A DNA stretch of 64,000 nt from Gammaproteobacteria bacterium. GTDB taxonomy: Bacteria; Pseudomonadota; Gammaproteobacteria; Pseudomonadales; Pseudohongiellaceae. The notes under the pieces were generated by a model, which saw nothing but the letters and a program-made list of their open reading frames with translations, was not told the DNA's origin and did no database searches. Made by a program: the position numbers and the translations under genes. Location of the stretch: NCBI GenBank assembly GCA_017853205.1, contig JAFMKB010000007.1:1-64000 (forward strand). Direction: 5' to 3'. Below, one piece after another: positions 9,854 through 25,394 of the stretch; positions within the stretch are counted from its first letter, which is position 1; each line of letters starts with the position of its first letter.

Positions 9854-10272
9854 TCCGTTCTCTCTAAAGGCTCTCGCGTTGCGATACTTAAGCCTACGAA
9901 CCCTGCACGACCGATTGCTTCCATTGCAGAGACTACAGCCTGATGTCGCACTTCCGCGTCAGCGACAAGTACCACCAGCCGAGAAACATCACCACCAGAT
10001 TCTAGCTCAAGCCCCCGAACCAGACTCTCCACCTCAGAATTGATCAGGCGGCGTCCGTTGATTGCATAACCTCCTTCTCTATCAACCAACACTTCGATCG
10101 ATTCAATAGAACTCTCGGGACTTCCTGATGCCTCAGGCAAAGACACAAGAAGTCTCGTTTCACGACTGAATGTTGTTGTCACCATAAAAAAGATGAGCAA
10201 CAGGAAGACGATATCAATCAGCGGTGTTAGATTTAATGCTGGCAACTCTCGTCGAGCCTGCCTAAATTTCAT
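9850..10272 (-). CDS. exbD: ExbD/TolR-family biopolymer transport protein
   Basis: A 140-residue single-pass inner-membrane protein of the ExbD/TolR family, which energises outer-membrane processes with ExbB using the proton gradient. The transmembrane segment at residues 18-37 includes the functional aspartate (Asp20 in LTPLIDIVFLLLIFFM). A periplasmic domain follows (LVSLPEASG, then VLVDREGGYAINGR). It overlaps exbB and lpxK by 4 bp each. No TonB gene is adjacent. The exbBD pair between comEC and lpxK is common in Pseudomonas-like genomes, and its specific client is not known here. Confidence 0.9.
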   Translation of the reverse strand: MKFRQARRELPALNLTPLIDIVFLLLIFFMVTTTFSRETRLLVSLPEASGSPESSIESIEVLVDREGGYAINGRRLINSEVESLVRGLELESGGDVSRLVVLVADAEVRHQAVVSAMEAIGRAGFVGLSIATREPLERTE

Positions 10273-10901
10273 GATCCGCTACTCCTTACCTCAACAGTCT
10301 TATCACTGTGCAAGGCATCCACTAGTTTTAGCGATTCTTGTTCGAGACCCAATACCAAAGCATCAACTTTACGCAAAAAGAATCGATGTGCAGCGTAAGC
10401 AGGGATCGCTACACAAAGACCAGCTGCGGTCGACACCAAAGCCTCTGAAATACCGCCGGCGAGAGCATTTGCGTCACCCGTGCCAACGAGCATTATCTGT
10501 CCGAAGACACGAATCATTCCCACTACAGTCCCCAGCAAACCTAGCAGCGGAGTCACCGCTGCTATTGTTCCCAGCGTTTCAAGATAGCGTTCTAATTCAT
10601 GGACTATCTGCGCGGCTGTTAATTCGATAGATTCGATCATCGCAGCACGCCCAAACTTGCTATTCGACAAGCCGACAACTAACAGCCGCCCTAGGGGGGA
10701 TGCTCGTCTCACCTCTCGTAGACGCGACGAATCGAGCTGCCCATTCTTGATCCAAGTCCAGACCTGAGCCAGCGCGTATTTGGGTATGACACGCGTAGTA
10801 CTGAGTGTCCAAGAGCGCTCGATAACTATAGCAATAGCGATAACTGAACAGAGTAAAATGGGCAGCATTAATATTCCGCCCGAATTAAGTATGTCGAACA
10901 C
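10269..10901 (-). CDS. exbB: MotA/TolQ/ExbB proton-channel family protein
   Basis: A 210-residue inner-membrane protein of the TolQ/ExbB family, partner of the ExbD encoded next. Three membrane segments are visible: residues 9-28, about 103-125 (TIAAVTPLLGLLGTVVGM, the family signature), and about 145-165. It forms the proton channel with ExbD. The genes overlap by 4 bp. It follows comEC by 84 bp. It could equally be called a TolQ-like paralogue; the absence of tolA, tolB or pal nearby favours ExbB. Confidence 0.9.
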   Translation of the reverse strand: MFDILNSGGILMLPILLCSVIAIAIVIERSWTLSTTRVIPKYALAQVWTWIKNGQLDSSRLREVRRASPLGRLLVVGLSNSKFGRAAMIESIELTAAQIVHELERYLETLGTIAAVTPLLGLLGTVVGMIRVFGQIMLVGTGDANALAGGISEALVSTAAGLCVAIPAYAAHRFFLRKVDALVLGLEQESLKLVDALHSDKTVEVRSSGS

Positions 10902-10925
10902 TGCTTAAACTCCTGCGCTTGCGGA

Positions 10926-10943
10926 GCGACGACCTCTCGTCGC
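10926..10943. repeat. Short perfect hairpin between comEC and exbB
   Basis: GCGACGA and TCGTCGC form a 7-bp perfect stem with a 4-base loop in the 84-bp comEC-exbB gap. There is no T-tract on the minus strand, so it may attenuate or stabilise the polycistronic message rather than end it. Confidence 0.4.
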
Positions 10944-10985
10944 ACCTCTCTTTCACCCAAGGGGTAAGGGCTATTTCTAATCTTA

Positions 10986-13655
10986 TCATAGGCGTTTGGC
11001 TATGGGTCTCCAATAGCGGCGGTGTGTCTCTCGATAAGCGCGCGGAAACGACATGCGCCCTTGCCGATTCAATTCCACGGTGAGCATTCCTCGTGTTGCA
11101 GTGTTAAATGCCTCTATCCCAAGTAGCGCATAGCGAGATAGAACTTCGGAGTGCGGATGTCCAAACGAATTTTTATAGCCGGCAGCAATGAATACTACTT
11201 CAGGTGTTGCGCGTTTGAGCAATGCATAGCTAGAAGACGTTTTGCTGCCATGGTGCGGCGCGATCAGAAGCGTTGTCTTTAATTCGTGCTCATAGCGCAG
11301 CGCCAGTTCCACCTCATCATTTCGCTCAATATCCCCTGTAAGGAGAATCACGGATTCTCCTAGAGCTATTCTGAGGACGCACGACTGAGAATTCTTAGTC
11401 CTATCTCTGCTCGACGCCTCTCCATCGCTAGCGATGGCTGTCGGGCTTAGGTAAGAGAAAACTACACCGTCCCAACGCCATGACTCACCCGCGCGGCACG
11501 AACGCAGCGTCATCGCGCGCTTACCGAGAAATTCCGCGTAAGCCTCGGTATTTTCGGCGTAGCCACCCGCATGAATATCCGCTATGGGAATCGAAGCTAG
11601 AACGCCTGCTGCGCCGCCAGCGTGGTCATTGTCGGCATGACTTATAACGAGTCGATCTAGCTTTTTTATACCTAACGCTCGTAGAGCGGGCTTGATCACG
11701 ACACTACCCATTTCAAAGTCCGCACTAAGGCTTGCGCCAGTATCATAGAGAAGTGTGTGGCAATTGGTTCTTATTACAAGGGAAAGACCTTGTCCCACAT
11801 CGAGCAAATTAAGACGCAGAGAGGCTGGAACTTTACTGCATTTGTTTTCATGGGTCTCTGCGCGCCAGTCTGTAGCAGTAAGAGCTATTGCAGTGACCCA
11901 AAACCCACAAACACAGCGAGTTCGCCAAGCGACAGGAAAAAGACAAATACAAAGACAAACCACAAGAAGGAGGTAGCGCGCGGAAGAAAGGGTGACTTGC
12001 GGAGCCCAGACGAACTCAAATTCGGCAACTGCCGCAAGCAACAAAAATAACTGATCACATAGTCGTTCAGCGAGTAAAAACACGCCCAGTGCGTTCTCTT
12101 CGAATAGAGCCAAATCAAGTACTGCGAGAAGTGAAGCCGGCAGCAATGCGAAGGTAAGAAGAGGAATCGCCAGCAAATTGACTAGTGGTGCTATCAAAGA
12201 CACATCGATACCCAAAACAAGCAAAGGCAGAAAGAGCGCCAGCGCCACAATGAGTTGAGGTAAGACCAATCGCTTTGCTTGACGCGATAACCAAGAAAGC
12301 GTTGGGGAGTCGCCGTTATTCCCCTCGTCGGAGAACTTGTTACTTTGTGGCGAGGCAATGGCGAGTACTAACGCCAACACGGCGGCGAAGCTAAGCCAAA
12401 ACCCTGAGCCTGTCGCGGCGAGCGGGGAACCAATAAGAACAAAGGTGAGTGCGAGCAACAGACCAGAGACTACGCCAAGGCGTCGCGAAGTAAGCTTAGC
12501 GCTTGCGAATACCGCGAGCATCACAACCGCACGCTGCGCCGGCAGGCCCCATCCTGAGAGCAAGGCAAATACCGTAGTGCCAACCACACTAGAACAAAGA
12601 CTGAATACCTGACGACTCGGCACAAGAGGCGCGAGTAGAGGTAAAAAGAAAAGCATGAGTCGCCATAGCGCACGGGATAACAATAGTAAGAACACGGCGA
12701 TCATTCCTACATGCAGCCCTGACACCACGAGGAGATGGGTTGTTCCGGTTTCACGAAGCTGATTCCAAACCGCTTGAGTTATAAGGCTAGAATCGCCCAA
12801 CCCTAACGCCAGAATTACCCCTGTGTGCCGCATGCTGTCGCTGTTATCTAAAACTCTTTTACGTATCTCGAAGCGAAGCTGTTCGATTAATAAAAACAAG
12901 GATGGGATACCATTACCTTGTTTCTCAACTGACCTCACCTCAAGTGCTCCGCGGACATAACCCTTCGCGAGAATTTTGTTTCGAAATAAAAGCGCCTCGT
13001 AATCGAATCCTCCCGGATTAGAGAAACCATGGGGCCTATTCAGCTTCACGGTAAGTTGCAGTCTTGAGCCTGGCCTCAACTCCGCAGGATAATAGAGCGG
13101 CCTTTCTTCGCGCTCTGCTTCTCCTCCAGTTCTATCGTCGGAACTAGGCATGTAATAACTCAATAGAATTCTGCCGCTAAAAGGAATTTGATTGCCACAG
13201 GCTGAATGTCCAGCGGATTTAGTGCGCATCGACGGTAATCGCTCGTGAACGCTTGCTGTGTCTTTATTTGGCATGGGACTAGCAAGCAGACAGGCGGCTT
13301 TTACCGCGAATTCGAACCGGTATGCCTCGCCGGCAACAGAGGGTAGATTAAGCACAACGCCCTCGATGAAGAGAGGTATGCCCTCGAATTCTTGCGGCAA
13401 CTGATGATCGAGTTGTTTTTCTGCCGTCACCGCATGAAACAAGGCGCCACAGCAGAATACAATGCAGACAGAGAGCCATAGTCCCACCCGAGCTCTCTGT
13501 TTTACGGCTAGAATTCTACGAATACACAGAGACGAGGTCGCTATCAGAATGAGCAAAGCGCACAGCGCTAGCAAAAAAGACCTGATAAGTGCTAAGTCCG
13601 ACGCGCGGGTTACGCAGAGTATGCCAAGACAAAAAGCGGAAAGAAAAAATCGCAT
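10986..13655 (-). CDS. comEC: DNA internalization/competence membrane protein ComEC (Rec2)
   Basis: ComEC forms the inner-membrane channel through which single-stranded DNA enters during natural transformation. The 889-residue protein is longer than most (about 750-800). Three parts are seen: N-terminal membrane helices with the DUF4131 region, the central multi-helix Competence domain beginning near HLLVVSGLHVGMIAVF, and a C-terminal metallo-beta-lactamase-like domain with ISHADNDHAGG (His673, His678) and a later APHHGSKTSSS. The extra length is mainly in the DUF4131 region, where a Ser/Glu-rich insert is seen. A ribosome site (AAGG) precedes the ATG. Whether the cell is competent cannot be told from this gene alone. 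Confidence 0.94.
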   Translation of the reverse strand: MRFFLSAFCLGILCVTRASDLALIRSFLLALCALLILIATSSLCIRRILAVKQRARVGLWLSVCIVFCCGALFHAVTAEKQLDHQLPQEFEGIPLFIEGVVLNLPSVAGEAYRFEFAVKAACLLASPMPNKDTASVHERLPSMRTKSAGHSACGNQIPFSGRILLSYYMPSSDDRTGGEAEREERPLYYPAELRPGSRLQLTVKLNRPHGFSNPGGFDYEALLFRNKILAKGYVRGALEVRSVEKQGNGIPSLFLLIEQLRFEIRKRVLDNSDSMRHTGVILALGLGDSSLITQAVWNQLRETGTTHLLVVSGLHVGMIAVFLLLLSRALWRLMLFFLPLLAPLVPSRQVFSLCSSVVGTTVFALLSGWGLPAQRAVVMLAVFASAKLTSRRLGVVSGLLLALTFVLIGSPLAATGSGFWLSFAAVLALVLAIASPQSNKFSDEGNNGDSPTLSWLSRQAKRLVLPQLIVALALFLPLLVLGIDVSLIAPLVNLLAIPLLTFALLPASLLAVLDLALFEENALGVFLLAERLCDQLFLLLAAVAEFEFVWAPQVTLSSARYLLLVVCLCICLFPVAWRTRCVCGFWVTAIALTATDWRAETHENKCSKVPASLRLNLLDVGQGLSLVIRTNCHTLLYDTGASLSADFEMGSVVIKPALRALGIKKLDRLVISHADNDHAGGAAGVLASIPIADIHAGGYAENTEAYAEFLGKRAMTLRSCRAGESWRWDGVVFSYLSPTAIASDGEASSRDRTKNSQSCVLRIALGESVILLTGDIERNDEVELALRYEHELKTTLLIAPHHGSKTSSSYALLKRATPEVVFIAAGYKNSFGHPHSEVLSRYALLGIEAFNTATRGMLTVELNRQGRMSFPRAYRETHRRYWRPIAKRL

Positions 13656-13725
13656 GAGCCACCTTTGCAGTGGCCCTTAACTTTAGTTCGATACTGCTGA
13701 AGAGGCGAATTTGTGTCAGTTTTTG

Positions 13726-14985
13726 CTAATCGCCCCGCAGGACTGATGCTGGTCGCAGAGATGCTGCTTGGCGCGCCGGATAAAGCGAAGCAAGGACAGA
13801 GAGAATCAAAACCCCAGCCGCAATCCCGACTATGTCAGACATGAGAACTTGCGAAGGTAGAAAATCAATCGGATATATTTCGGGATTCAAAAGCACCACG
13901 CCGGTTGCTGTTTCGAAGGCAGAAGCGATCTCCCCTATCCATAGTGCGCCGAGCACACCCAACACAACACCGGCAGCGATACCAAACAGAGCAATCGCAG
14001 CGCCTTGCCAAAGAAAAATTGTTTGAACAGTTTGCGTATTAGCGCCTAGCGTCATCAGTATCGCAACATCATCACGCTTATCTCGTACAATCATCACTAA
14101 GCTGACAACTAAATTGAACGCGGCGATTGAAATTAACAACCACAGCATGAAGCTGACAATACTCCGAGAGAACTGGATATTTCTATAAATAGCACCCAAG
14201 TTGGTGGTCCAACTTTCGATGACGATTTCGTCACCGAATTTACTGCTCAACCTATTTCGTATGCTATCTGCTACTAATACATCTTGGGTAACGAGAGTAA
14301 ACGCTGATTGAGATGCCCGCATCCGGAGTAGCGCCCGAGCATCGGCAAGTGTCAGCGTGATCAATTTTGCATCGAGCTCTTCGCTTCCAACACGGGTTAT
14401 AGCGGCTATTTCGAACGATCTAAAGGTGGGCATCGTTGCTAATGGGTTCGGTGTAAGCTTGGGCGAGAACACGTCGATCGAGTCACCCACCTCGACGCCG
14501 AGGTCGCGAGCCAACGTCGCACCAACAACGACTCGCCAGCGTGAATCAGCGAGTCGATCTAGGCTCCCCGAAACTGCATACTTCGAAAGTCTAGCGAATG
14601 ATTCACTCTCAATATCAACACCGTTTATAGCGACCGCACGACTGGCCGTCGGCGTTGCAACAACACCGAGACTCGTGACGACTCGAGAAAGAGCGATTAC
14701 ATCGCTTTCGGACAACAGAGTCGCGCCCAGTGAAGTCCACTGCTCGGTACTGAGATCTTGTTCGCTGCTAACCGTTAGGTGTGGAATGATCCCTAGAACG
14801 TTCTCGCGCACTTCTCGCTCGAAGCCATTCATGACAGACAAAACAACAATTAAAAGCGATACACCGAGAGCCAGTCCTGCCACTGAGATGAGCGACATGA
14901 ACGAAACCAAAGAGCTCGACGAGCCTACGCGAACGTAGCGCGAGCCGATACGACGGGCTAGGCTTAGCGATCTAAGCAGCGGCAT
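13726..14985 (-). CDS. lolE: Lipoprotein-releasing ABC transporter permease LolE (LolC/E family)
   Basis: Inner-membrane permease of LolCDE, which extracts outer-membrane lipoproteins and hands them to LolA. The start at 14985 (MPLLRSLSLARRIGSRYVR) is preferred: it gives 419 residues, close to the family, and aligns with the LolE N-terminus. A start at 15021 would add 12 residues and overlap lolD by 14 bp. Topology is one N-terminal helix (SLISVAGLALGVSLLIVVL), a large periplasmic domain (about residues 50-265), then three C-terminal helices ending SLYPARQAASLRPASVLRGD, the FtsX-like pattern. By gene order (third after lolC and lolD) it is named lolE; the two permeases are homologous. Confidence 0.9.
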   Translation of the reverse strand: MPLLRSLSLARRIGSRYVRVGSSSSLVSFMSLISVAGLALGVSLLIVVLSVMNGFEREVRENVLGIIPHLTVSSEQDLSTEQWTSLGATLLSESDVIALSRVVTSLGVVATPTASRAVAINGVDIESESFARLSKYAVSGSLDRLADSRWRVVVGATLARDLGVEVGDSIDVFSPKLTPNPLATMPTFRSFEIAAITRVGSEELDAKLITLTLADARALLRMRASQSAFTLVTQDVLVADSIRNRLSSKFGDEIVIESWTTNLGAIYRNIQFSRSIVSFMLWLLISIAAFNLVVSLVMIVRDKRDDVAILMTLGANTQTVQTIFLWQGAAIALFGIAAGVVLGVLGALWIGEIASAFETATGVVLLNPEIYPIDFLPSQVLMSDIVGIAAGVLILSVLASLYPARQAASLRPASVLRGD

Positions 14986-15007
14986 AACGCCTGCCGCAAT
15001 GAGAGGG

Positions 15008-15691
15008 TCAGGCTTCGACATGGAGTTTCCCAGCGACCAGTGATAGTCGCCGATCCATGGCCGCGGCAAGCGCCACATCATGGGTAACAACGATAAAACT
15101 CGTTGCCAGACTTATGCTGAGCTCTTTCATCAGCACATGAATCTCCAGCGCCGTTTGTCGATCGAGGTTTCCCGTCGGCTCGTCCATCAATACACACTTA
15201 GGTTCACTGACGAGAGCCCTCGCAATTGCCACTCGCTGCCTTTCCCCACCCGACAATTCCGCAGGCTTGTGTGTAAGCCTTTCACCCAAACCTACGCGGT
15301 CGAGTAGCGACGCCGCGCGCGCGGAAGCCTCTTTATCTGAAATACCGGCTATATATAGCGGCATGCAGACGTTTTCCAGCGCAGAGAACTCAGCAAGTAA
15401 ATGATGAAATTGATAGACGAACCCAATGAAGCGATTTCGAAGAATTCCTCGCTGCACTTCAGAGACACCCGCGAGATCAAAGCCAGCAACGCTCACTACG
15501 CCTGAGGTCGGCGAATCCAATCCACCCAGTAGATTCAGCAATGTCGTCTTCCCCGAACCTGAGCTGCCGACAATTGCTATTCGCTCCCCCGCCTTCACAG
15601 TGAAGTCTAATTCGTCCAGTACCACAATCTTTCGAGAGCCCTGCTGATAGCATTTAACTAGGCGTTTAGCCTCCATTACCGGCTCATTCAT
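15008..15691 (-). CDS. lolD: Lipoprotein-releasing ABC transporter ATP-binding protein LolD
   Basis: A 227-residue ABC ATPase that powers LolCDE. Walker A is [10 protein letters not shown] (residues 38-47), the Q-loop is in [10 protein letters not shown], the signature is [15 protein letters not shown] near residue 146, and Walker B with catalytic Glu is [11 protein letters not shown], followed by the switch histidine in IVVTHD. It overlaps lolC by 8 bp and nearly abuts lolE, so the three are one operon. Confidence 0.97.
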
Positions 15692-16925
15692 AACGTAATA
15701 CCTCTGCCGGTTCTATTTTACTCGCCCGATAGGCAGGATAGAGTGTGGCGATGAGACTGATCAAAAGCGCAGCTAAACAGACTAGAGCAACTTCGCTCCA
15801 TACCACCTGCGTTTGAAGATGAGAAACAAATACGATGTTGCTATTACCCGTCGCCCAGCCTACTGCTCGCTCGAGGGCGAGACTAATTCCAGCCAAATTA
15901 TTTGCGATAAGGACACCCAAAAACGCCCCCAGTCCAGTGCCCATAATGCCGCTCACACCACCCTGCACTATGAATACTCGCATGATGACGCCCCGAGAAG
16001 CACCCATGGTGCGCAATATTGCGATATCGGGCCCCTTTTCAGCCACGGCCATGACCAGTGTTGACACAATGTTTACCGCACCAACCGCAACAATGGTAAG
16101 AAGCATGAGTCCCGTAAGAAATTTTTCCATCGCGAGCGCACCAAACAAGCTAGATTGCGCCTCTCGCCACGTCTCAATTTCTGTCGAAGGGAGTTCAAGC
16201 ATCTTGCTGCTAGCAAGTAAATCTCGCTTAACGTTGTCTGCAGAAAAGGCATCATCCAAGCTTAGTCGCAGGAGTGTCTCCGCGTTGACATCCAGCGCCA
16301 GCGCCTCTTCTCGTTTCATGAGAACTATATTGCCGCCGCCATAGGCGCCAAAATCGACATAACCGAGGACACTAAACCCCTGCGGCGCGCTTTTCGAGCG
16401 CCTAAGGAGCCTGTCAAGTGCCGCAATGCTCAGCTCATCGCCGGAACGTATACCCAACCGACTTGCCAGGCGCGTATCAAGCAGCACCCCGTTGCGACTC
16501 TCTTCAAGTGCTTGCAGCGCCTGTGCTGCGCGATCGCCCGCCTGGCCCGCAATCGCCTGCTCGAGCGCGGGCTCGATACCCCTGACCTGAACGAATTCTG
16601 TCAGGCCATTGATCGTCAACACCGCCTCTAATTCTGCGTAGGGGGCGACTGCTTTGACGGAAGGGTTTTCTGAGAATACCTTGGCCAAACGCTGCCACTC
16701 CTTGGACATCGTTTCGTTAGTTACCGTGAGATGAGGAACAGATTTGAGGGCTTCGTTGCGCAGAAAAGAGATAGAACCGTTCATCACCGACAGGGCAATA
16801 ATTAGAATCATTACACCGAGGAGAACGCCAAGCATCGAAATGCTTGAGACAAATGACAGCAAACCCGAATGTTTGCGCGCGCGGCTGAATCGCACGCCGA
16901 TAAAGATCGAAAGCATTTTGCGCAT
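15684..16925 (-). CDS. lolC: Lipoprotein-releasing ABC transporter permease LolC (LolC/E family)
   Basis: A 413-residue permease of the lipoprotein exporter. The start [18 protein letters not shown] and the [19 protein letters not shown] helix are typical of LolC/E. A periplasmic domain follows, then three membrane helices (near residues 270, 320 and 380), ending [21 protein letters not shown]. It is the first of lolC-lolD-lolE. Only 31 bp separate it from the recombinase-like gene upstream, so the promoter may lie before that gene or inside it. Confidence 0.93.
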
Positions 16926-16956
16926 TTGAGACTCTATATCCGAATGGGGAGACCGG

Positions 16957-17628
16957 CTAGTCTGCGGACCGTTGCAGTACTCTTTGCACCGTTTTAAAAC
17001 TGATCGGTGTCATAGGCGTCGATACCGCTGCCGAAATCGCCCTGAGCGACTTACCTTGACGCTTCAGCTCAAATATTTTTTGCAGCGTTCGTTGCTCAGA
17101 AGGGTTCTCGATCAGCTTTCCGTTGTCGTGGACACTAAAACCAAAGGGCCGACTGCCACCCAAAAAACGCCCCTTCTCTTTTTGCTTATATTTCACCCTC
17201 TTAATCCTCTCGGCACTGCGGCGTGACTCAAGGGCTGCAAAAAGTGCGGAGGCGTCGCTGAAGGTAGTCACGGTGGCTGAGTCTGTCAGTTCTGCTCCTA
17301 CTTCACAGCAATGCAGGGAGATGCCCCGTTCGCATAGGTCTTTTACTAACGTACTGAACTCTACGGTGGAGCTACATAATCGCTGGATTTGTGCGCAAAG
17401 CAGGACATCACCCTCTTTCATTGCAGCCAGTAATGCTGAACCATGGGGGCGTTCGCCTAAACTTTGATCCCAACGGCAGCCCCTATCGATGAGACTTTGA
17501 GAGATGAACCAGCCGCGCGCGAGGCCATAGGTCTGCATTGCCAAAGCGTCGGTTTCCAGCGCAGCAGTAAGTGTCGCGTCATCCGCCTCCTCAAGCTGCG
17601 TTGTCCTCGAATAGGCGTATACTGTCAT
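16957..17628 (-). CDS. Serine-recombinase-like protein with altered active site
   Basis: A 223-residue protein with the fold pattern of a resolvase/invertase. The N-terminus reads YAYSRTT where family members have Y-x-R-V-S-T. Arg8 is kept, but the nucleophile position (Ser10 in gamma-delta resolvase) is Thr10. Arg60 (in GERPHG) and Arg83 are kept, while the usual RLxRS reads RLCSS, so a second active-site Arg is Ser86. The long helix (SRRSAERIKR) and a Hin-like DNA-binding end (GGSRPFGFS, then ELKRQGKSLRAISAAV) look intact. It probably binds DNA but may not recombine it; Thr could retain weak activity. No terminal repeats, transposase or cargo flank it. It lies 31 bp before lolC on the same strand, so it may share the lolCDE transcript. 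Confidence 0.78.
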   Translation of the reverse strand: MTVYAYSRTTQLEEADDATLTAALETDALAMQTYGLARGWFISQSLIDRGCRWDQSLGERPHGSALLAAMKEGDVLLCAQIQRLCSSTVEFSTLVKDLCERGISLHCCEVGAELTDSATVTTFSDASALFAALESRRSAERIKRVKYKQKEKGRFLGGSRPFGFSVHDNGKLIENPSEQRTLQKIFELKRQGKSLRAISAAVSTPMTPISFKTVQRVLQRSAD

Positions 17629-17835
17629 CGTTCAAATGATCCGCTGAATTCTGGCAAATTACTGATTTTAAAATGAAAATTGCATTCTTTGGAGAGAGCA
17701 ATCAGGAGTGGTTATCATTCTACGCATAGGCGTTCGCATGAAGCAAGCGGCGAAGGAATGCCTGCACAACTGGCTCAATTAGCAATTTACTTAGTATCTG
17801 TTCACGAGAGCACTCAAGAAATGCCTCGTAAGTAA

Positions 17836-17864
17836 TTGAGTATAGGCGTTTTTACTGTTATATT
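17836..17864 (+). promoter_or_regulatory. Candidate sigma-70 promoter for rne
   Basis: TTGAGT (17836-17841) is separated by exactly 17 bp from TATATT (17859-17864). Transcription would start near 17871 and produce a leader of about 746 nt before rne. A copy of the ATAGGCGT motif lies inside the spacer (17842-17849), so a protein binding there would control the promoter. Confidence 0.4.
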
Positions 17865-18468
17865 CCATCGCTAAGACTTGGGAGAACTATCCCGCAAACA
17901 GAATTCATAAGGTAAACGCGCAGTAATTCCAGCAAGGGCTGGAGCGCGCCATTCAAGCATCGGCGCCGGTTTGATCTACTGCGAAAAAGGAAAACGATCA
18001 GGTTTTCCGCAATAAGTAAAAGAGTGAGTTTAAGTAGTAAACAAAGCGAGGGTGACAGAACGAGCAATATAAGACTTTCGACTGCAGCGGCATGACCCTA
18101 CAGACAAAAGCCACAGCTCAACTGATTACCGCAACAACATCTCCGCAGCGCGTTAAGGGAGCAACAGCCCCCCGCAGTCGGAAATCCAGAGAGATCTAGG
18201 AAACAAGATTCAACACACCAACTGAGTAAATGCCGAGAACAACCGCCTCAAAGCGACGAGATAAACGGCAGCAAATTTGGTGAGTAAACGATACACGACA
18301 AGTTTAGCTTTTTGTAATTTGTTAACGAGACCGTACAAAAGACAATGTCAAACTACGCACACAATGCATGTTCGATGGGCCAATCCTCTAGGATCGGCTG
18401 TCTACGCGGCATCTACGACACCTTAGAAGCATTAAAGACAAAAAGGCACGCCTTCAAACGGCCGTCCC

Positions 18469-18559
18469 TTCGCCTCGAGCGAATGTCCTAGTCCACTGTA
18501 TTGGCTGCGGGTCACGTTTGCGTGTACGCCGCAGGTAGCAAGATACCCTAAACGGTATC
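18469..18559 (+). promoter_or_regulatory. Hairpin array in the rne 5' leader (candidate autoregulatory element)
   Basis: Three hairpins lie within 150 nt upstream of the rne ATG. The first is TTCGC/GCGAA (18469-18483). The second and strongest (18505-18534) has CTGCGG pairing with CCGCAG, continued by GT/AC and CACG/CGTG around a TTTG loop with two one-base bulges. The third is GATACC/GGTATC (18542-18559). In enterics the rne leader is cleaved by RNase E through structured hairpins to lower its own synthesis; similarity of role here is inferred, not shown. Confidence 0.45.
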
Positions 18560-18616
18560 CGCCTCTTGAGAATCATTTCCTAGCTCACTCTCTGGCAATT
18601 TAAGGATAGTGAACTA

Positions 18617-21514
18617 ATGAAAAGAATGCTTATCAATGCAACGCAAGAAGAAGAACTTCGCGTTGCCCTCGTTGATGGACAGCGTCTCTACGACCTCGAC
18701 ATCGAAAACCGCACCCGAATCCAGAAAAAAGCAAATATTTACAAAGGCAAAGTGACCCGCGTTGAGCCAAGCCTCGAAGCGGCATTTGTAGATTTTGGCG
18801 CCGAACGACATGGTTTCCTCCCGCTCAAAGAAATTTCAAGCGAGTATTATGCTAAGGATGTAAAGAGTAACGGTGAACGCACGAACCTCAAGGAGTTAAT
18901 CCCGGAAGGCACGCAGGTGATCGTGCAGGTAGAAAAAGAGGAGCGAGGCAATAAAGGCGCCGCGCTGACTACTTATATCAGCCTAGCCGGCCGCTACCTG
19001 GTATTGATGCCTAATAACCCAAAAGCAGGAGGCATCTCTCGTCGCATTGAAGGCGAGGAACGCAACGAATTACGCGAAGCTCTGCGTGGACTAAATATCC
19101 CAGATGGCATGGGCATAATCGTCCGCACGGCAGGCATTGGGAAAGGCCAGAAAGAGCTTCAGTGGGATTTAGATTACCTCCTCGCGCTCTGGCAAGCCAT
19201 CGGTGAAGCGTCTGAAGCCAAGCGCGCCCCCTTCTTGATTTACCAAGAAAGCAACGTAATTATTCGCATGATTCGCGATTATCTCAGAAAAGATATCGGT
19301 GAAGTGCTATTCGATACGCAAGAGGCTTTTGATGAGGCTATGACTTTCGTCAAGCAAGTCATGCCTCAATACGAAAGCCGCATCAAACTCTACTCCGACG
19401 CGCTTCCTCTGTTTAATCGCTACCAGATAGAAAGCCAAATCGAGAGCGCTTTCGAGCGCGAAGTAAAACTTCCCTCCGGTGGATCTGTTGTTATCGACCC
19501 TACCGAGGCTCTCATCTCAATTGATATTAACTCCTCCCGGGCAACGCGAGGCGCCGATATTGAAGAAACGGCATTAAATACAAATCTCGAAGCAGCCGAC
19601 GAAATCGCGCGCCAACTGCGCCTTCGCGACATGGGTGGACTCGTTGTAATCGATTTCATTGACATGGGGTCCAACCGCAACCAACGCGAAGTCGAAAATC
19701 GCATGAGAGACGCTCTCGAAGCAGATCGCGCGCGAGTTCAGGTGGGACGAATCTCCCGTTTTGGCCTACTAGAGATGTCTCGCCAACGTCTTCGCCCATC
19801 ACTGGGCGAGACCAGTGCGATCACTTGCCCGCGCTGCAGTGGCCAAGGCAGTATTCGCGATGTCGAATCTCTGGCACTCTCGATTTTGCGTATTATCCAA
19901 GAGGAAGCGAACAAGCAGAAATGCGCCGAAGTACGAGTTGACGTACCCTTAGTCGTCTCTTCTTACCTTCTGAATGAGAAGCGAACAACACTGGCGGAAA
20001 TTGAAAAACAAAGTGAAACCAAGGTAATTATTTTCGCGAATCCAGAATTGGAAACCCCGCATTACAAGATCACTGGCCTTAATCAAGCGGCAGAGGTTTA
20101 TGATGTGGATATTACCGCCACACCGGAGCCCATAAACAGCGCCAAAAACGCAGCACCTGTGGCAGCGGTTCAACGCCCCTCTGTCGAAAGCGTTCCTATT
20201 CCTCAAGCACCGGCAGGCGCAAATGTTCGTTCGGGTAAAAAAGAGGGTGACAAGCCAGGACTGCTCGCTGGCTTATTCGCGGCACTCGCCAGCATTTTCG
20301 GCAGCGCTAAGAAAGAGGAAGCTAATAAGCCGAAACGAGGTGGAAATAGCAACCGTGGCGGCCGAGGTCGATCTGGCTCTAGAGGCCAGCGTGGCCAACA
20401 GAATAGAAATCGCGGTGAGCGCGCCACGAAGGGCGAAACAGAAATCAACGCCTCAGCGAATAATCTTAGCGACTCGGATGATAAGGCCGAACGCGGGGAA
20501 CGACGCTCACGAGGCGGCCGCCGCGGCGGACGCAACCGAGACAACGCGCAGGACAACCCGACAACCTCTGGCAACGACAGTACGACTGCTGACAACCGCA
20601 GTGCAAGTGACGAAAATCGCCGACGCCGCTCGCGATCACGTAACGGCGACCGAAAAATCGAGGCCCGAGGCGATCAGGATTTAAGCGAGAATACCGCAGC
20701 AACAGAAGACAGCGGAACATCCGAGTTTTCTCGTCGCCCAGCGAGCCAGCGTCCCAAAAACACAACCCCTCGTAATCGCGGACCTCGACCTGACTTAGAG
20801 AAAGCTGCAGAAGAACTCGTTGTTATTGCAGAAGCAAACGAGCAACAAGGTGAACCCACTGTTACAAAAGCCACCGCAGAGCCGGAGTCATCTAACGCGC
20901 CAAACCTTGCAGAGGCGCTTGGTGTAATTAGCGCATCGAGTCCAAATACTGTCGCGACTGAGCACGCTGCACAGTCCGAAACAGAAGTAGAAGCAGTTCC
21001 AATATCTAAAGAGAATGAACCCTCAGAGAATGCTGGAATAAGCGCTGAGGAAAGCGCTAGAGAGAGCACCGAGGAGAACCCAAAAGAGGACATTGACGCA
21101 GCTACTGAAACTGAATCTGCCGCACCTAAAGACGATCAACCTCGCGAGCGAAAAACGCGCGAAAGACGCCCGCGGCGACCACGCAAACGTGCACAGCGAG
21201 ATGAGGCAGCAAGCGCGGACACAGCACATATAGGCGGCGCTGAGGATGCGGATAACTTCGCAGAAGCGGCGATTGATGAAGCGCCTGTCGTGATTTCTGA
21301 AGCACCAGAGAAGCCAGAGTCAGTAACAGCATCGCAGGAGTCTGGCGAGACACCGGCAACGAATGCCGAGGTTGCAACAGTCACAGATGAGGGAGTAGTC
21401 GAGAGCGCTACAGACTCCCAAGTTGCGACTGAATCAGAGGCGCAGGAAATTGAAATTGCTAAGCCTAAGCAGCGCAGACGCGCGCCTAACGATCCGCGTC
21501 ACAAGCGAGGTTAG
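18617..21514 (+). CDS. rne: Ribonuclease E
   Basis: The main endoribonuclease of mRNA decay and rRNA/tRNA processing, and scaffold of the degradosome at the inner membrane. Length is 965 residues. The catalytic half shows the S1 domain ([20 protein letters not shown], from residue 35), the 5'-sensor/RNase H region, the magnesium aspartates in [13 protein letters not shown] and [11 protein letters not shown] (DNase I-like domain), and the zinc-link CPRCSGQG near residue 405. From about residue 510 the protein is low-complexity: Arg/Gly-rich blocks ([30 protein letters not shown]) alternate with a long Glu/Ala/Ser acidic region and end in a basic tail. This half is expected to be disordered and bind RNA or partners. 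AAGGA lies ten bases before the ATG. A bidirectional terminator follows. Confidence 0.97.
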
Positions 21515-21530
21515 GTAGAATAAGAAGCAA

Positions 21531-21573
21531 AAAAAATACCCCGGCCGCTCAAAGCGCCTGGGGTATTTTTTTA
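21531..21573. terminator. Bidirectional intrinsic terminator between rne and etfA
   Basis: An A-rich arm ending AAATACCCC pairs perfectly with GGGGTATTT followed by T residues. An inner GGCCGC/GCG-CC part surrounds a short loop. T-tracts are available on both strands, so it can stop rne (plus) and etfBA (minus), which converge here. Confidence 0.88.
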
Positions 21574-21627
21574 TAGCATCTAAAGAGAGCGTGGCTGAAG
21601 ACCCTGCTCTCACTGCCGGCGGTTGTC

Positions 21628-22557
21628 TTAGAGTGCTGCCTCTAGCTCTGGCAGAGCGACAAATAAATCGGCTACGAGTCCATAATCGGCGACCTGGAAA
21701 ATTGGCGCCTCTTCATCTTTATTAATCGCAACGATGACTTTACTGTCTTTCATACCAGCAAGATGCTGAATCGCGCCCGAGATACCCACAGCGATGTAGA
21801 GGTCCGGTGCGACGATCTTGCCCGTCTGACCTACTTGATAATCATTAGGTACGAAACCTGCGTCAACAGCAGCGCGCGAAGCGCCAATGCCAGCACCCAA
21901 TTTATCTGCCACTTTTTCGAGCAATACAAAATTTTCACCACTCTGCATGCCACGGCCTCCAGAAATGATGATGCTCGCAGAAGACAGACTTGGGCGTTCT
22001 GAGACCGAAAGTTCCTCTGATACGAAGCTCGCAACGCTTTGCTCGATAACAGTATTTAACGCTTCTATTGAAGCAGAACCGCCCTCTGAGGCAGCCTCGG
22101 CGAAAGCAGTCGTTCTTACAGTGATCACTTTGACAGAATCCGCACTTTGCACCGTCGCTAATGCGTTACCCGCATAAATCGGACGTACGAAGGTATCAGC
22201 CGACTTTATCGCTACAATATCAGAGACCTGTGCAACATCGAGAAGTGCTGCAACGCGAGGCATTAGATTCTTGCCTGTTGTTGTTGCCGGCGCCAAAACG
22301 TGGGCAAATCCGCCAGCTGCTTGCGCAACAAGCGGTGCAACAGCTTCGGGCAGCTGGTGCAAGTAGGCTTGCGAATCTGCGACGATGACATTCGATACAC
22401 CCGCAATACTTGCTGCCTCAGCGGCAGCAGCCTGACAATCCGATCCCACTACCAAAAGTGTGATTGGCGCCCCTAATTCAACTGCCGCGGTGACCGTATT
22501 TCTTGTCGAAGATTTGATGCTAGCGTTATCGTGCTCTGCAATTACTAAAGTTGTCAT
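21628..22557 (-). CDS. etfA: Electron transfer flavoprotein alpha subunit
   Basis: ETF-alpha binds FAD and, with EtfB, passes electrons from acyl-CoA and other dehydrogenases to ETF-ubiquinone oxidoreductase. The ATG at 22557 (309 residues) is chosen because AGGTGG lies just ahead; an in-frame GTG three codons upstream is possible. The C-terminal FAD-binding signature is seen as ISGGRGMQSGENF near residue 200, GASRAAVDAGFVPNDYQVGQTGKIVAPDLYIA around residue 230 and GISGAIQHLAGM near 268. The etfB stop codon lies about ten bases upstream. Confidence 0.95.
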   Translation of the reverse strand: MTTLVIAEHDNASIKSSTRNTVTAAVELGAPITLLVVGSDCQAAAAEAASIAGVSNVIVADSQAYLHQLPEAVAPLVAQAAGGFAHVLAPATTTGKNLMPRVAALLDVAQVSDIVAIKSADTFVRPIYAGNALATVQSADSVKVITVRTTAFAEAASEGGSASIEALNTVIEQSVASFVSEELSVSERPSLSSASIIISGGRGMQSGENFVLLEKVADKLGAGIGASRAAVDAGFVPNDYQVGQTGKIVAPDLYIAVGISGAIQHLAGMKDSKVIVAINKDEEAPIFQVADYGLVADLFVALPELEAAL

Positions 22558-22566
22558 CGTATCCAC

Positions 22567-23316
22567 CTATATTACTTTGGCTTCGGTCTTGAGCTTAGCG
22601 ACCAATTCGTCGATTGACTCAACCATGATTCCGGCAGAGCGTTCTGCAGGCGCCTCGACGCTCAGCGTCTTGAGATTGGAGCTTACGTCTACGCCGAGAT
22701 CCTCAGGCGTAGTTGTATCGATAGGCTTCTTTTTTGCCTTCATAATATTAGGCAATGAGGCATAGCGCGGCTCGTTAAGACGAAGGTCAGTGGTTACCAC
22801 TGCGGGCAGGTTAAGGAGCACTGTCTGCTCGCCGCCATCAATCTCCCTAGTGACTTCGATTTTTCCGTCGCGAATTTCAGCGTTACAGGCAAAAGTCCCT
22901 TGCGGCCAGTTACAAAGCGCAGCTAGCATCTGACCCGTTTGGTTGTTATCGGTATCAATGGATTGTTTCCCGAGAATAACTAGGTCTATTCCCTCTTTAT
23001 CAATTACCGCTTTGAGGAGTTTGGCTATCGCGAGTGGCTCAAGCGCTTCGTTGTTTTCGATAAGAATGCCGCGATCAGCCCCAAGCGCGAGCGCAGTGCG
23101 AATCTGCTCTTGGCATTGAGTAGCACCTATCGACACGGCAATTACTTCATCGGCAGAGCCGGCTTCCTTCATGCGGATAGCTTCTTCTACAGCTATCTCG
23201 CAAAAAGGGTTAATCGCCATTTTTGCATTAGCGAGGTCGACACCCGTACCATCGGACTTCACTCTAACTTTTACATATGCGTCGACGACGCGCTTAATAG
23301 CTACAAGAACCTTCAT
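22567..23316 (-). CDS. etfB: Electron transfer flavoprotein beta subunit
   Basis: The AMP-binding partner of EtfA in fatty-acid and amino-acid beta-oxidation electron flow. The ATG at 23316 (249 residues, starting [12 protein letters not shown]) is chosen over one four codons upstream because GGGAGAA is correctly placed for it. The signature [18 protein letters not shown] near residue 36 and the [24 protein letters not shown] region near residue 117 are typical. It is the first gene of etfBA; its promoter must lie in 23329-23560. Confidence 0.96.
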
Positions 23317-23374
23317 GGATTCTCCCATTGGAAGCTGCGCTGGTATCGCAAACTTCGGTCTGATTTACGAGGTG

Positions 23375-23392
23375 GTATACAGAAAAGTATAC
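23375..23392. promoter_or_regulatory. Repeated GTATAC palindromes upstream of etfB
   Basis: GTATAC (23375-23380) and GTATAC (23387-23392) are separated by six bases, about 60 bp before the etfB start. On the minus strand each contains a TATAC -10-like hexamer, so the element may be a promoter, an operator, or both. No regulator is encoded nearby. Confidence 0.3.
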
Positions 23393-23560
23393 GAGTTGAT
23401 CCGCGGCATTCTGCGGGGCAAGGCACAATCCGTAGCGCCCTGAAACAGCCGCCAATCATGCCGCTTTTACAGCCTTAGGTCAAATTAGATGCTCATCATG
23501 ACAGCAAAGTGTCAACATGCTTAGAATGAGTCGAGATGACAGTGAGATAGACGCTCAGAT

Positions 23561-24151
23561 TTAAACCAAGGGAAAGAAAACACCGTCGCTCCATACACCG
23601 AAAACCTCATTCTCCCGCTCGCCTGCATTGGACTCGACCAATTCAGCCAATTGATAGAAGACTGAGCGGGACACCAAGCCGAGAAGCCCTGCTCTGACAT
23701 CAACAGTAGGATGAGGCTCGGCGCTACCGCCTGAGTCGGTTCGATTACCCCCGATGACTAGAGGATGCTCACGCCCTGCCGCAACCTCTTCGCCCAAGCT
23801 CGTACGTAATAGAAGCCGCTGGCTCGAAGGATCACTCGCATTTTCAACGCGAAGCTCCGTGAGCAAAAACGGACAGTCCTCAACACGAATACGGACTTTC
23901 TCTGCAGGCGTTACCAAAAAGTGTTCGCCCTTTTCGTACAAAAGAATCGAGGCAAAAAGCTCAGCCATACCCTTGCGTCTAATGGGACGACCCTCGTGCC
24001 ACCAACTACCGTCTCGGCGAATTTCAATATCGATATCACCACAGAAAGGAGGATCCCATAGGTGAACGGGCGCGGCACCTCTCCACTGACCGGATTGCGC
24101 AGCAGCCTCCAAGGACCTGATATCACTTTTTTTAGGAAAATTAATGGCCAT
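23561..24151 (-). CDS. DUF1285-family protein
   Basis: A 196-residue soluble protein matching the DUF1285 pattern: PVHLWDPPFCGDIDIEIRRD near residue 27, a Trp-rich turn (GSWWHEGRPIRRKGM), and HFLVTPAEKVRIRVEDCPFL near residue 77. The function is not known. It is divergent from mnmH with 72 bp between, and its 3' end points toward etfBA. GGAGGA abuts the ATG with almost no spacing, which is unusual; a short leader or a slightly different start is possible but none is better. Confidence 0.85.
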   Translation of the reverse strand: MAINFPKKSDIRSLEAAAQSGQWRGAAPVHLWDPPFCGDIDIEIRRDGSWWHEGRPIRRKGMAELFASILLYEKGEHFLVTPAEKVRIRVEDCPFLLTELRVENASDPSSQRLLLRTSLGEEVAAGREHPLVIGGNRTDSGGSAEPHPTVDVRAGLLGLVSRSVFYQLAELVESNAGERENEVFGVWSDGVFFPLV

Positions 24152-24223
24152 TCCTCCAATTTAGCATAGAGCTGATACACTACACGACAATCAATTCTGG
24201 GCAGCTGAACGGACAAAAGAACA

Positions 24224-25357
24224 ATGGTTACAACAGCATCAAACACAGGTTCAGCACCTCAGCCAGAGCAAGTGACCTCGGACCACTTCACTGAATTATT
24301 ACTCGATTCAACCCCGCTTATCGATGTAAGAGCTGAATGCGAGTATCTCGACGGACATATTCCTAACTCTCATAATCTCCCTTTGCTCACCGATCCTGAA
24401 CGCGCCCAAGTCGGCACCTGTTATAAAAATAAAGGACAAGAGGCCGCAATTGCTCTTGGCCATGAACTCGTCTGTGGAGACGTTAAACGACGAAGAGTCG
24501 ATGCTTGGGTCGAATTTATAACTGCAAACCCTTCTGCCGTAATTCTATGCTTTCGCGGCGGCCTCCGTTCTCGGACAGCACAAACGTGGCTTGCCCAGAG
24601 AGGATTTGAGCTACCGCGAATACGTGGTGGCTATAAGGCACTGCGTCGTCACCTTTTACAAACGACGATACGCGTCGCGGATGAAAAAAAGATTATTATT
24701 CTCGCTGGTAAAACCGGATCGGGAAAAACACATCTTGTAAACAAAATCAGGGACTCAGTCGATCTCGAGGGGATCGCTAATCATCGAGGCTCTGCCTTTG
24801 GTAAACGGGTGTCCGCGCAACCCTCACAGGTTGTTTTCGAAAACCGGTTAGCTCTTAAACTTCTTAAGCAAGAACAGCGAGACACCACCGCCCTATTCCT
24901 CGAAGATGAGAGCAGAGCGATTGGCTCACTATCACTCCCTCTAGAACTTCACAGAGCAATGAGCCTAGCGCCGATAATTCAGGTGGAAGAGACTTTAGAG
25001 TTTCGCGTCGAGACCATTCTCAACGATTATATCGTGTCGAATCTTACAGACTTCGTACACCTTGACGCAGACAGAGGGAAAGACTTGTTCGCAGAGTCCC
25101 TGCTCGACAGTCTAGACAAAATTAGAAAAAGGCTTGGTGGTGAACGCCATTTGGCGCTGCGTCTATTGATGTTAGCCGCACTTAACAACGACAACGATCT
25201 CGATCAACATCGCGCTTGGATCCGTGACCTTCTTGCCGATTACTACGACCCGATGTATGAATATCAAATGACAAAAAAGCAGCAGCGCGTCGTATTTAGG
25301 GGAGACAGTCGCGCAGTTCTTGATTGGGCTGCGGAATTTGTTGAACTCCAAAAGTAG
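24224..25357 (+). CDS. mnmH: tRNA 2-selenouridine synthase
   Basis: MnmH (YbbB/SelU) replaces sulfur by selenium in the wobble 2-thiouridine of certain tRNAs, through a geranylated intermediate. The 377-residue protein has an N-terminal rhodanese domain with the catalytic cysteine in LCFRGGLRSRTAQ (Cys109) and a P-loop domain with ILAGKTGSGKTH near residue 160. Both are diagnostic. The reaction needs selenophosphate from SelD; selD is often next to mnmH but is not in this window. The gene is followed after 37 bp by the AddB-like gene on the same strand, so a shared transcript is likely although no functional link is known. Confidence 0.93.
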   Translation: MVTTASNTGSAPQPEQVTSDHFTELLLDSTPLIDVRAECEYLDGHIPNSHNLPLLTDPERAQVGTCYKNKGQEAAIALGHELVCGDVKRRRVDAWVEFITANPSAVILCFRGGLRSRTAQTWLAQRGFELPRIRGGYKALRRHLLQTTIRVADEKKIIILAGKTGSGKTHLVNKIRDSVDLEGIANHRGSAFGKRVSAQPSQVVFENRLALKLLKQEQRDTTALFLEDESRAIGSLSLPLELHRAMSLAPIIQVEETLEFRVETILNDYIVSNLTDFVHLDADRGKDLFAESLLDSLDKIRKRLGGERHLALRLLMLAALNNDNDLDQHRAWIRDLLADYYDPMYEYQMTKKQQRVVFRGDSRAVLDWAAEFVELQK

Positions 25358-25394
25358 CAATTGGAACCTGTTTACGTAAGGCGGCACAAAGCCC

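Follow-up and report, generated by a model that had tools for sequence, protein, structure and literature searches.

A serine-recombinase-like gene preceding lolC in the Pseudohongiellaceae: a probable recombination-dead resolvase predicted to repress its own promoter in most members

INTRODUCTION

The Tn3 and gamma-delta resolvases (TnpR) join a serine-recombinase catalytic domain to a helix-turn-helix end and recombine DNA at res; Tn3-type proteins keep Ser, Arg68, and Arg71. Hin-type DNA invertases share the fold and regulate by inverting DNA. According to the available part of one source, Tn3 resolvase bound at res also autoregulates tnpR and tnpA (PMC7157771). In the available passages of a review, a Hin-type recombinase shared with phages regulates host genes, host use of serine recombinases consists of DNA inversion, integration, and excision, and recombination-dead regulators are absent from those passages (PMC8987985). 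Resolvases that double as repressors are already known, as are recombinases recruited for the inversion of host DNA. Neither a dedicated regulator of lolCDE nor a lolC-linked recombinase-like protein of the kind described here appeared among the literature matches listed (titles and beginnings of abstracts).

Here we analyze a 64,000-nucleotide stretch of a gammaproteobacterial genome of the family Pseudohongiellaceae (the window), in which an earlier note, made from the sequence alone, had proposed that a serine-recombinase-like gene next to lolC encodes a recombinase turned into a DNA-binding regulator or structural protein. As with TnpR, the orthologous proteins have a catalytic-domain fold and a helix-turn-helix end, and most members (though not the window's genome) have a site at the gene's own promoter. 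They differ from TnpR in lacking Arg71, in having just one conserved site, and in their chromosomal locus shared with lolCDE; from the Hin-type invertases they differ in having neither a second exact site nor an intact active site.

RESULTS

The locus and the encoded protein

The gene lies 31 bp before the lolC start codon (which begins at 16925) on the same strand, as the earlier note had stated, and no mobile gene was seen in positions 10000 to 26000, in line with its remark that mobile DNA does not flank the gene (Table 1). The LolC product matched the lolCE model TIGR02212 with an E value of 3e-102 and 342.6 bits, slightly below the model cutoff of 362.45. The divergent upstream ORF, which we take to be rne-like, had a counterpart in 72 of the 94 loci having at least 1,450 bp of upstream sequence. 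A putative rne promoter (TTGAGT, 17 bp, TATATT; plus strand, in the region 17836 to 18616) was conserved in five genomes of the window's own clade, and an rne leader of about 750 nt would follow from it. A search of Rfam returned nothing in 13000 to 22000 at E values up to 1.

Table 1. Features of the recombinase-like locus in the window
Feature	Coordinates	Strand	Basis
Putative promoter: TTGCTT (17741-17746), 18 bp, TAGAAT (17717-17722)	17717..17746	-	5-genome upstream alignment, by eye
Location corresponding to the palindrome of most other members, without a significant copy in the window	17682..17704	-	Alignment, shuffles
Gene for the 223-aa serine-recombinase-like protein, heading a putative operon that includes lolCDE	16957..17628	-	ORF, Pfam, 105 aligned orthologs, AlphaFold model
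Catalytic-domain part, residues 1-134, incomplete active site	17227..17628	-	Column counts and alignment with intact relatives
DNA-binding part (residues 153-220), modeled with three helices and nearly invariant across the family	16969..17172	-	Alignment, AlphaFold model
Codon of Thr10, nucleophile position	17599..17601	-	Alignment
Codon of Gln82, in place of Asp of DRLxR	17383..17385	-	Alignment
Codon of Ser86, in place of the second Arg of RLxR	17371..17373	-	Alignment
lolC	15684..16925	-	ORF, family model
lolD	15008..15691	-	ORF, family search
lolE	13726..15021	-	Start codon inferred; ORF as listed begins at 15090
Presumed rne-like gene (RNase E/G), divergent, ~990 bp upstream of the recombinase-like gene	18617..21514	+	ORF

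The Pfam Resolvase N-terminal domain matched residues 4 to 154 of the window protein (E = 3e-14), and this domain (PF00239) was present in all 25 members scanned. A sequence-profile match to Tn3 resolvase was obtained with an E value of 4e-8. The earlier description of the DNA-binding end as Hin-like proved only loosely right, since no Pfam helix-turn-helix family matched the window protein significantly (the best was HTH_38, E = 0.042) and the PHROGs matches were to phage integrases (phrog_95, E = 5e-21) as well as DNA invertases (phrog_125, E = 2e-17); among the 25 members scanned, Pfam helix-turn-helix families gave weak matches in a few. An AlphaFold model built from 33 sequences had a mean pLDDT of 85.6 (an earlier model from 4 sequences, with a pLDDT of 46, was poor and was set aside). 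The model matched gamma-delta resolvase and other serine recombinase chains at Z scores of 12 to 16, namely the TP901-1 catalytic domain (Z = 15.9; rmsd, 5.8; 133 residues aligned), Bxb1 (Z = 15.4; rmsd, 12.2; 217 aligned), and gamma-delta 1gdt (Z = 12.2; rmsd, 10.1; 183 aligned), the rmsd being large where two domains were spanned; 1gdt_A and 5cy1_B were among the structural matches. Helices at residues 176 to 190, 195 to 202, and 211 to 222 make up a C-terminal helix-turn-helix in a block with a pLDDT of about 85 to 92. The serine-recombinase fold is intact in the model.

Distribution and synteny

Matches (E up to 1e-3) were found in 108 of 137 genomes of the window's family, in seven of its eight genera, and 106 of these 108 carried a true ortholog, of which 105 were aligned. 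Outside the aligned set were G133 (cut by a contig end), G156 (a remnant), and G081 (a weak match to another recombinase), and loci L028 to L030 (other families) and L109 to L111 (the same places as L002, L031, and L032) were excluded. Since 29 of the 137 genomes had no match (14 of 92 among the good assemblies), the gene is dispensable; some family genomes have lolC but no recombinase-like gene. No internal stop was present in any family match. A 25-member profile (E up to 1e-20) matched 13 of the 390 order genomes, all 13 of them in the window's family, and 1 of the 369 class genomes, which was the window's own; at this threshold, the order and class samples held no ortholog outside the family, and weaker matches in the order were other recombinases. 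The three named relatives found were MAGs, and one of them, OM182 bacterium BACL3, was 76% identical; OM182 is given as a genus of Pseudohongiellaceae in GTDB in the available part of PMC8371827.

The position beside lolC was conserved. In all 103 aligned loci with at least 700 bp of downstream sequence, lolC followed on the same strand, and in 99 it was the direct neighbor. The gap had a median of 81 bp and ranged from an 8-bp overlap to 662 bp, being 150 bp or less in 93 loci and 10 bp or less in 23. In four of the five members of genus g29 (gaps of 615 to 662 bp), an opposite-strand ORF of 153 to 163 codons intervenes although the upstream site described below is present, so that any self-control would not always include lolCDE. 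This ORF is alike in L070, L072, L077, and L081 (QHQ.FR..VFKSV); wherever else the gap exceeded 150 bp, the interval contained no ORF of 60 codons.

Active-site residues and selection

Thr10, Ser86, Arg8, Arg60, and Arg83, on which the earlier note had relied, were all confirmed in the window sequence. Thr10 is not the defining change, however: position 10 was Ser in 94 of the 105 orthologs, Thr in 9, Arg in 1 (L106), and a gap in 1. It was instead the change at position 86 (R71 of gamma-delta) that was universal, with Arg in none of the 105 (Ser in 93, Gly in 6, Asn in 4, and Thr in 2), and Asp was likewise absent from all 105 at position 82 (D67), which is Gln82 in the window protein. Arg60 (the R45 equivalent) was present in all 105 and Arg83 (the R68 equivalent) in 104. 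Ser135 of the window protein stands where relatives have Arg125. Arg8 has become Ala or Cys in eight members (L025, L026, L027, L068, L104, L106, L023, and L066), which form two groups on the tree, some of them with the site intact.

The phage recombinases of phrog_125 and phrog_95 (IMG/VR, L242 to L321) resemble the window protein in their full length, a GRYLGGxxPFG-like linker, and the DNA-binding end, but they lie on viral contigs and keep the active-site residues checked: Tyr6, Arg8, Ser10, Arg45, Asp67, Arg68, Arg71, and Glu124 were kept in 58 of 58 distinct relatives (drawn from 80 of 298 phage relatives). In a second set, made up of plasmid-encoded relatives, one phage protein, and proteins of viral contigs, Ser10, Asp67, Arg68, and Arg71 were kept in seven of seven, L212 and L213 being counted in both sets. 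On a quick tree with long outgroup branches (L019, L024, L067, and L108 excluded), the R71 loss was a single change among 108 rows, and position 10 needed three changes, counting the Arg of L106. Thr10 occurred at two places, in the window's clade of seven (L001, L002, L031, L032, L033, L023, and L066) and in L097 plus L099. Because residues lost throughout the family are kept in phage and plasmid relatives, the simplest history would be a single disruption of the active site, in the family ancestor, with Thr10 as a later addition. The residues lost here are needed for catalysis in resolvases, and since both the second Arg and the Asp of DRLxR are gone, DNA cleavage and strand exchange have presumably been lost. 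A role for Thr10 as a new nucleophile was rejected, since it arises in two parts of the tree and, in one of these clades, L023 and L066 have lost Arg8 as well.

The mean share of the commonest residue was 0.56 over residues 2 to 134 versus 0.84 over residues 135 to 220. The dN/dS comparison recommended in the earlier note (pairwise NG86, with many pairs saturated) indicated purifying selection, with values of 0.12 to 0.14 in three unsaturated window-clade pairs and of 0.04 to 0.08 in their DNA-binding part; the DNA-binding part had the higher value in 2 of 33 independent close pairs with values (L013/L058 and L007/L037). These results bear on the view that the gene is a recently degraded transposon resolvase, which the earlier note would have favored had close, intact homologs turned up in mobile elements. 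Relatives do exist in phages and plasmids, but the intact mobile homologs were all distant (22 to 34% identity to the window protein among 29 aligned phage relatives), so that recent degradation is not shown; together with the orthologous position across the family, the purifying selection, and the lack of internal stops and mobile flanks, this makes such an origin extremely improbable.

A palindrome behind the promoter

Upstream of the gene in most members lies an imperfect 24-bp palindrome with the consensus GTGGCWTTG-N6-CANRGRCAC. With a 26-column matrix, the score exceeded 10 in 89 of 105 upstream regions and 20 in 70, compared to 1 and 0 of 96 background segments, respectively; because the matrix was trained on the regions that it scored, the figure of 89 is descriptive. 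Whole-genome counts of the pattern provide a better test, although these same loci were also the source of the pattern. In the 137 genomes, the exact pattern occurred 50 times in 50 genomes, every copy lying within 900 bp upstream of the gene and on its strand, and none of these 50 genomes held a second exact site, which argues against recombination in present members. There were 32 one-mismatch copies, 14 upstream of the gene and 18 elsewhere, and the reversed-pattern control gave 4 copies in all with one mismatch allowed. Sixteen of the 18 distant copies were inspected; 13 lay in ORFs of at least 100 codons, and one of the other three is the near-perfect palindrome of G139 described below. 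The 18 may be due to base composition or may include a few genuine additional sites, and because 18 exceeds 4, the protein may have a regulon beyond its own promoter.

A still-active site-specific recombinase with an unusual active site would agree with the frequent Ser10, the nearly complete retention of the R45 and R68 equivalents, the fold of the model, and the inexact further sites. Such activity is nevertheless very unlikely, given the loss of the R71 and D67 equivalents from every member, of Arg8 from 8, and of Ser10 from 10, and given that none of the 50 genomes with an exact site has a second one.

In 79 of the 89 loci with a site, a -10-like hexamer stood within 26 bp before it (7.8 expected by shuffling), most commonly at a distance of 10 bp (41 loci). 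Proteins bound downstream of a -10 box usually block transcription. If the protein binds at its own promoter, it could still be an activator or a local architectural factor, since the evidence for predicted binding is the same and does not fix the sign of regulation; the location of the site downstream of the box makes this quite unlikely.

The palindrome could instead be an RNA feature (a hairpin at the transcript's 5' end) or an operator for some unrelated regulator, with the protein acting elsewhere. The site does begin about where the transcript would begin, its halves can pair in part, and in 16 of the 105 members no site above the cutoff accompanies the gene. Against an RNA feature, pair 4-21 was mismatched in 55 of 66 distinct sites and pair 7-18 in 27 of 66, and the right half is nearly constant while the left half drifts without compensation. 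Moreover, the site tracks the recombinase-like gene and not rne: it was retained where the upstream neighbor is not rne (L069 and L084), and among 17 loci where lolC is present but the gene is not intact, none scored above 10 in the upstream stretch scanned (1,500 bp each, except that L139 has just 598 bp before lolC). The 24-bp length and two-fold symmetry also suit a serine-recombinase dimer. We therefore consider an RNA feature or foreign operator unlikely and a target of the recombinase-like protein itself the better account of the palindrome.

The 16 members scoring 10 or less were L001, L002, L031, L032, L033, L103, L105, L107, L108, L106, L059, L066, L023, L038, L095, and L024 (which has only 153 bp of upstream sequence), and site presence needed seven changes on the tree. 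In genus g27, a candidate lying within the start of the coding region was dismissed as chance, since the best match in L105 and L107 was reached by 1 to 2% of shuffles and was absent from their sister L103.

Three genomes stood out individually. In G139, a near-perfect palindrome, GTGTCATTG-N6-CAAAGACAC, lies at C76:7379-7402 (L219, 2000 to 2023) with no ORF of at least 100 codons around it, and the genome's own recombinase promoter has no site. In G118, a second near-copy (C14:22581-22604; L179) stands directly before the start codon of the recombinase-like gene, about 144 bp from the usual site. G156 retains a degenerate piece of the DNA-binding part before lolC (L124, 1236 to 1421); just upstream, a TACAAT box is followed by what may be a decayed site (score of 4.5, not significant), and the gene and its site may be decaying together there.

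The window's own clade

The TAGAAT hexamer was kept in five of five genomes of the window's clade (L001, L002, L031, L032, and L033). A consensus promoter scan did not pick up the promoter of the recombinase-like gene, and its total of sites was no more than in shuffles. No clear palindrome was found in these five: the best score within 400 bp upstream of the window's gene (L001) was reached by 55% of shuffles, and the best of the clade, in L031, by 7%. Matches with three mismatches numbered 29, 26, 35, 25, and 29 per genome, with 19, 20, 17, 24, and 26 for the reversed control (144 versus 106 in total), and none of them lay at the promoter of the recombinase-like gene. At C-terminal positions 135, 151, 165, 177, 181, 183, and 221, the clade differs from nearly all site-bearing members. 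In this clade, where purifying selection on the gene persists without a recognizable canonical site, the target would seem to have moved or changed, or the role to have changed; alternatively, the regulatory role may have been lost and another function kept.

DISCUSSION

The protein is probably a resolvase that was domesticated and is dead for recombination, repressing its own promoter and, in most genera, lolCDE as well. This reading draws on the orthology and synteny of the gene, the residue loss, the selection acting on it, and the site with its position and genomic rarity, all of them observed. In the history that we envisage, the ancestor of the Pseudohongiellaceae would have captured a small serine recombinase of phage or plasmid type next to lolC; the second Arg of DRLxR would then have disappeared from this recombinase together with the Asp, while its fold and DNA-binding domain stayed. 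In most members, a dimer would bind the 24-bp palindrome immediately downstream of the gene's -10 box and, lying over the transcription start, block that promoter and with it lolCDE where these genes directly follow, in a manner resembling resolvase at res (PMC7157771); such negative feedback would set the level of lipoprotein export to the outer membrane. Binding, repression, and cotranscription of the gene with lolC are predicted here from comparative sequence data. The proposal of the earlier note that a recombinase had turned into a DNA-binding regulator fits the vertical inheritance, the residue loss, the near-invariant DNA-binding domain, and the palindrome at the promoter.

A more sweeping version is one that we hold tentatively, at somewhat below even chances: that the protein is a recombination-dead transcription factor in the whole family, exerting feedback on lolCDE through a single, formerly crossover-like site, and that the window's clade was retargeted as it lost the nucleophilic Ser and the ancestral site.

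The kind of molecule is not new, whereas a lineage-wide variant of this known theme is. If the probable reading is true, the family would offer a natural experiment in the conversion of a recombinase into a transcription factor, in which about 100 related proteins and about 90 sites can be compared, and the protein would be a candidate for a dedicated regulator of lolCDE.
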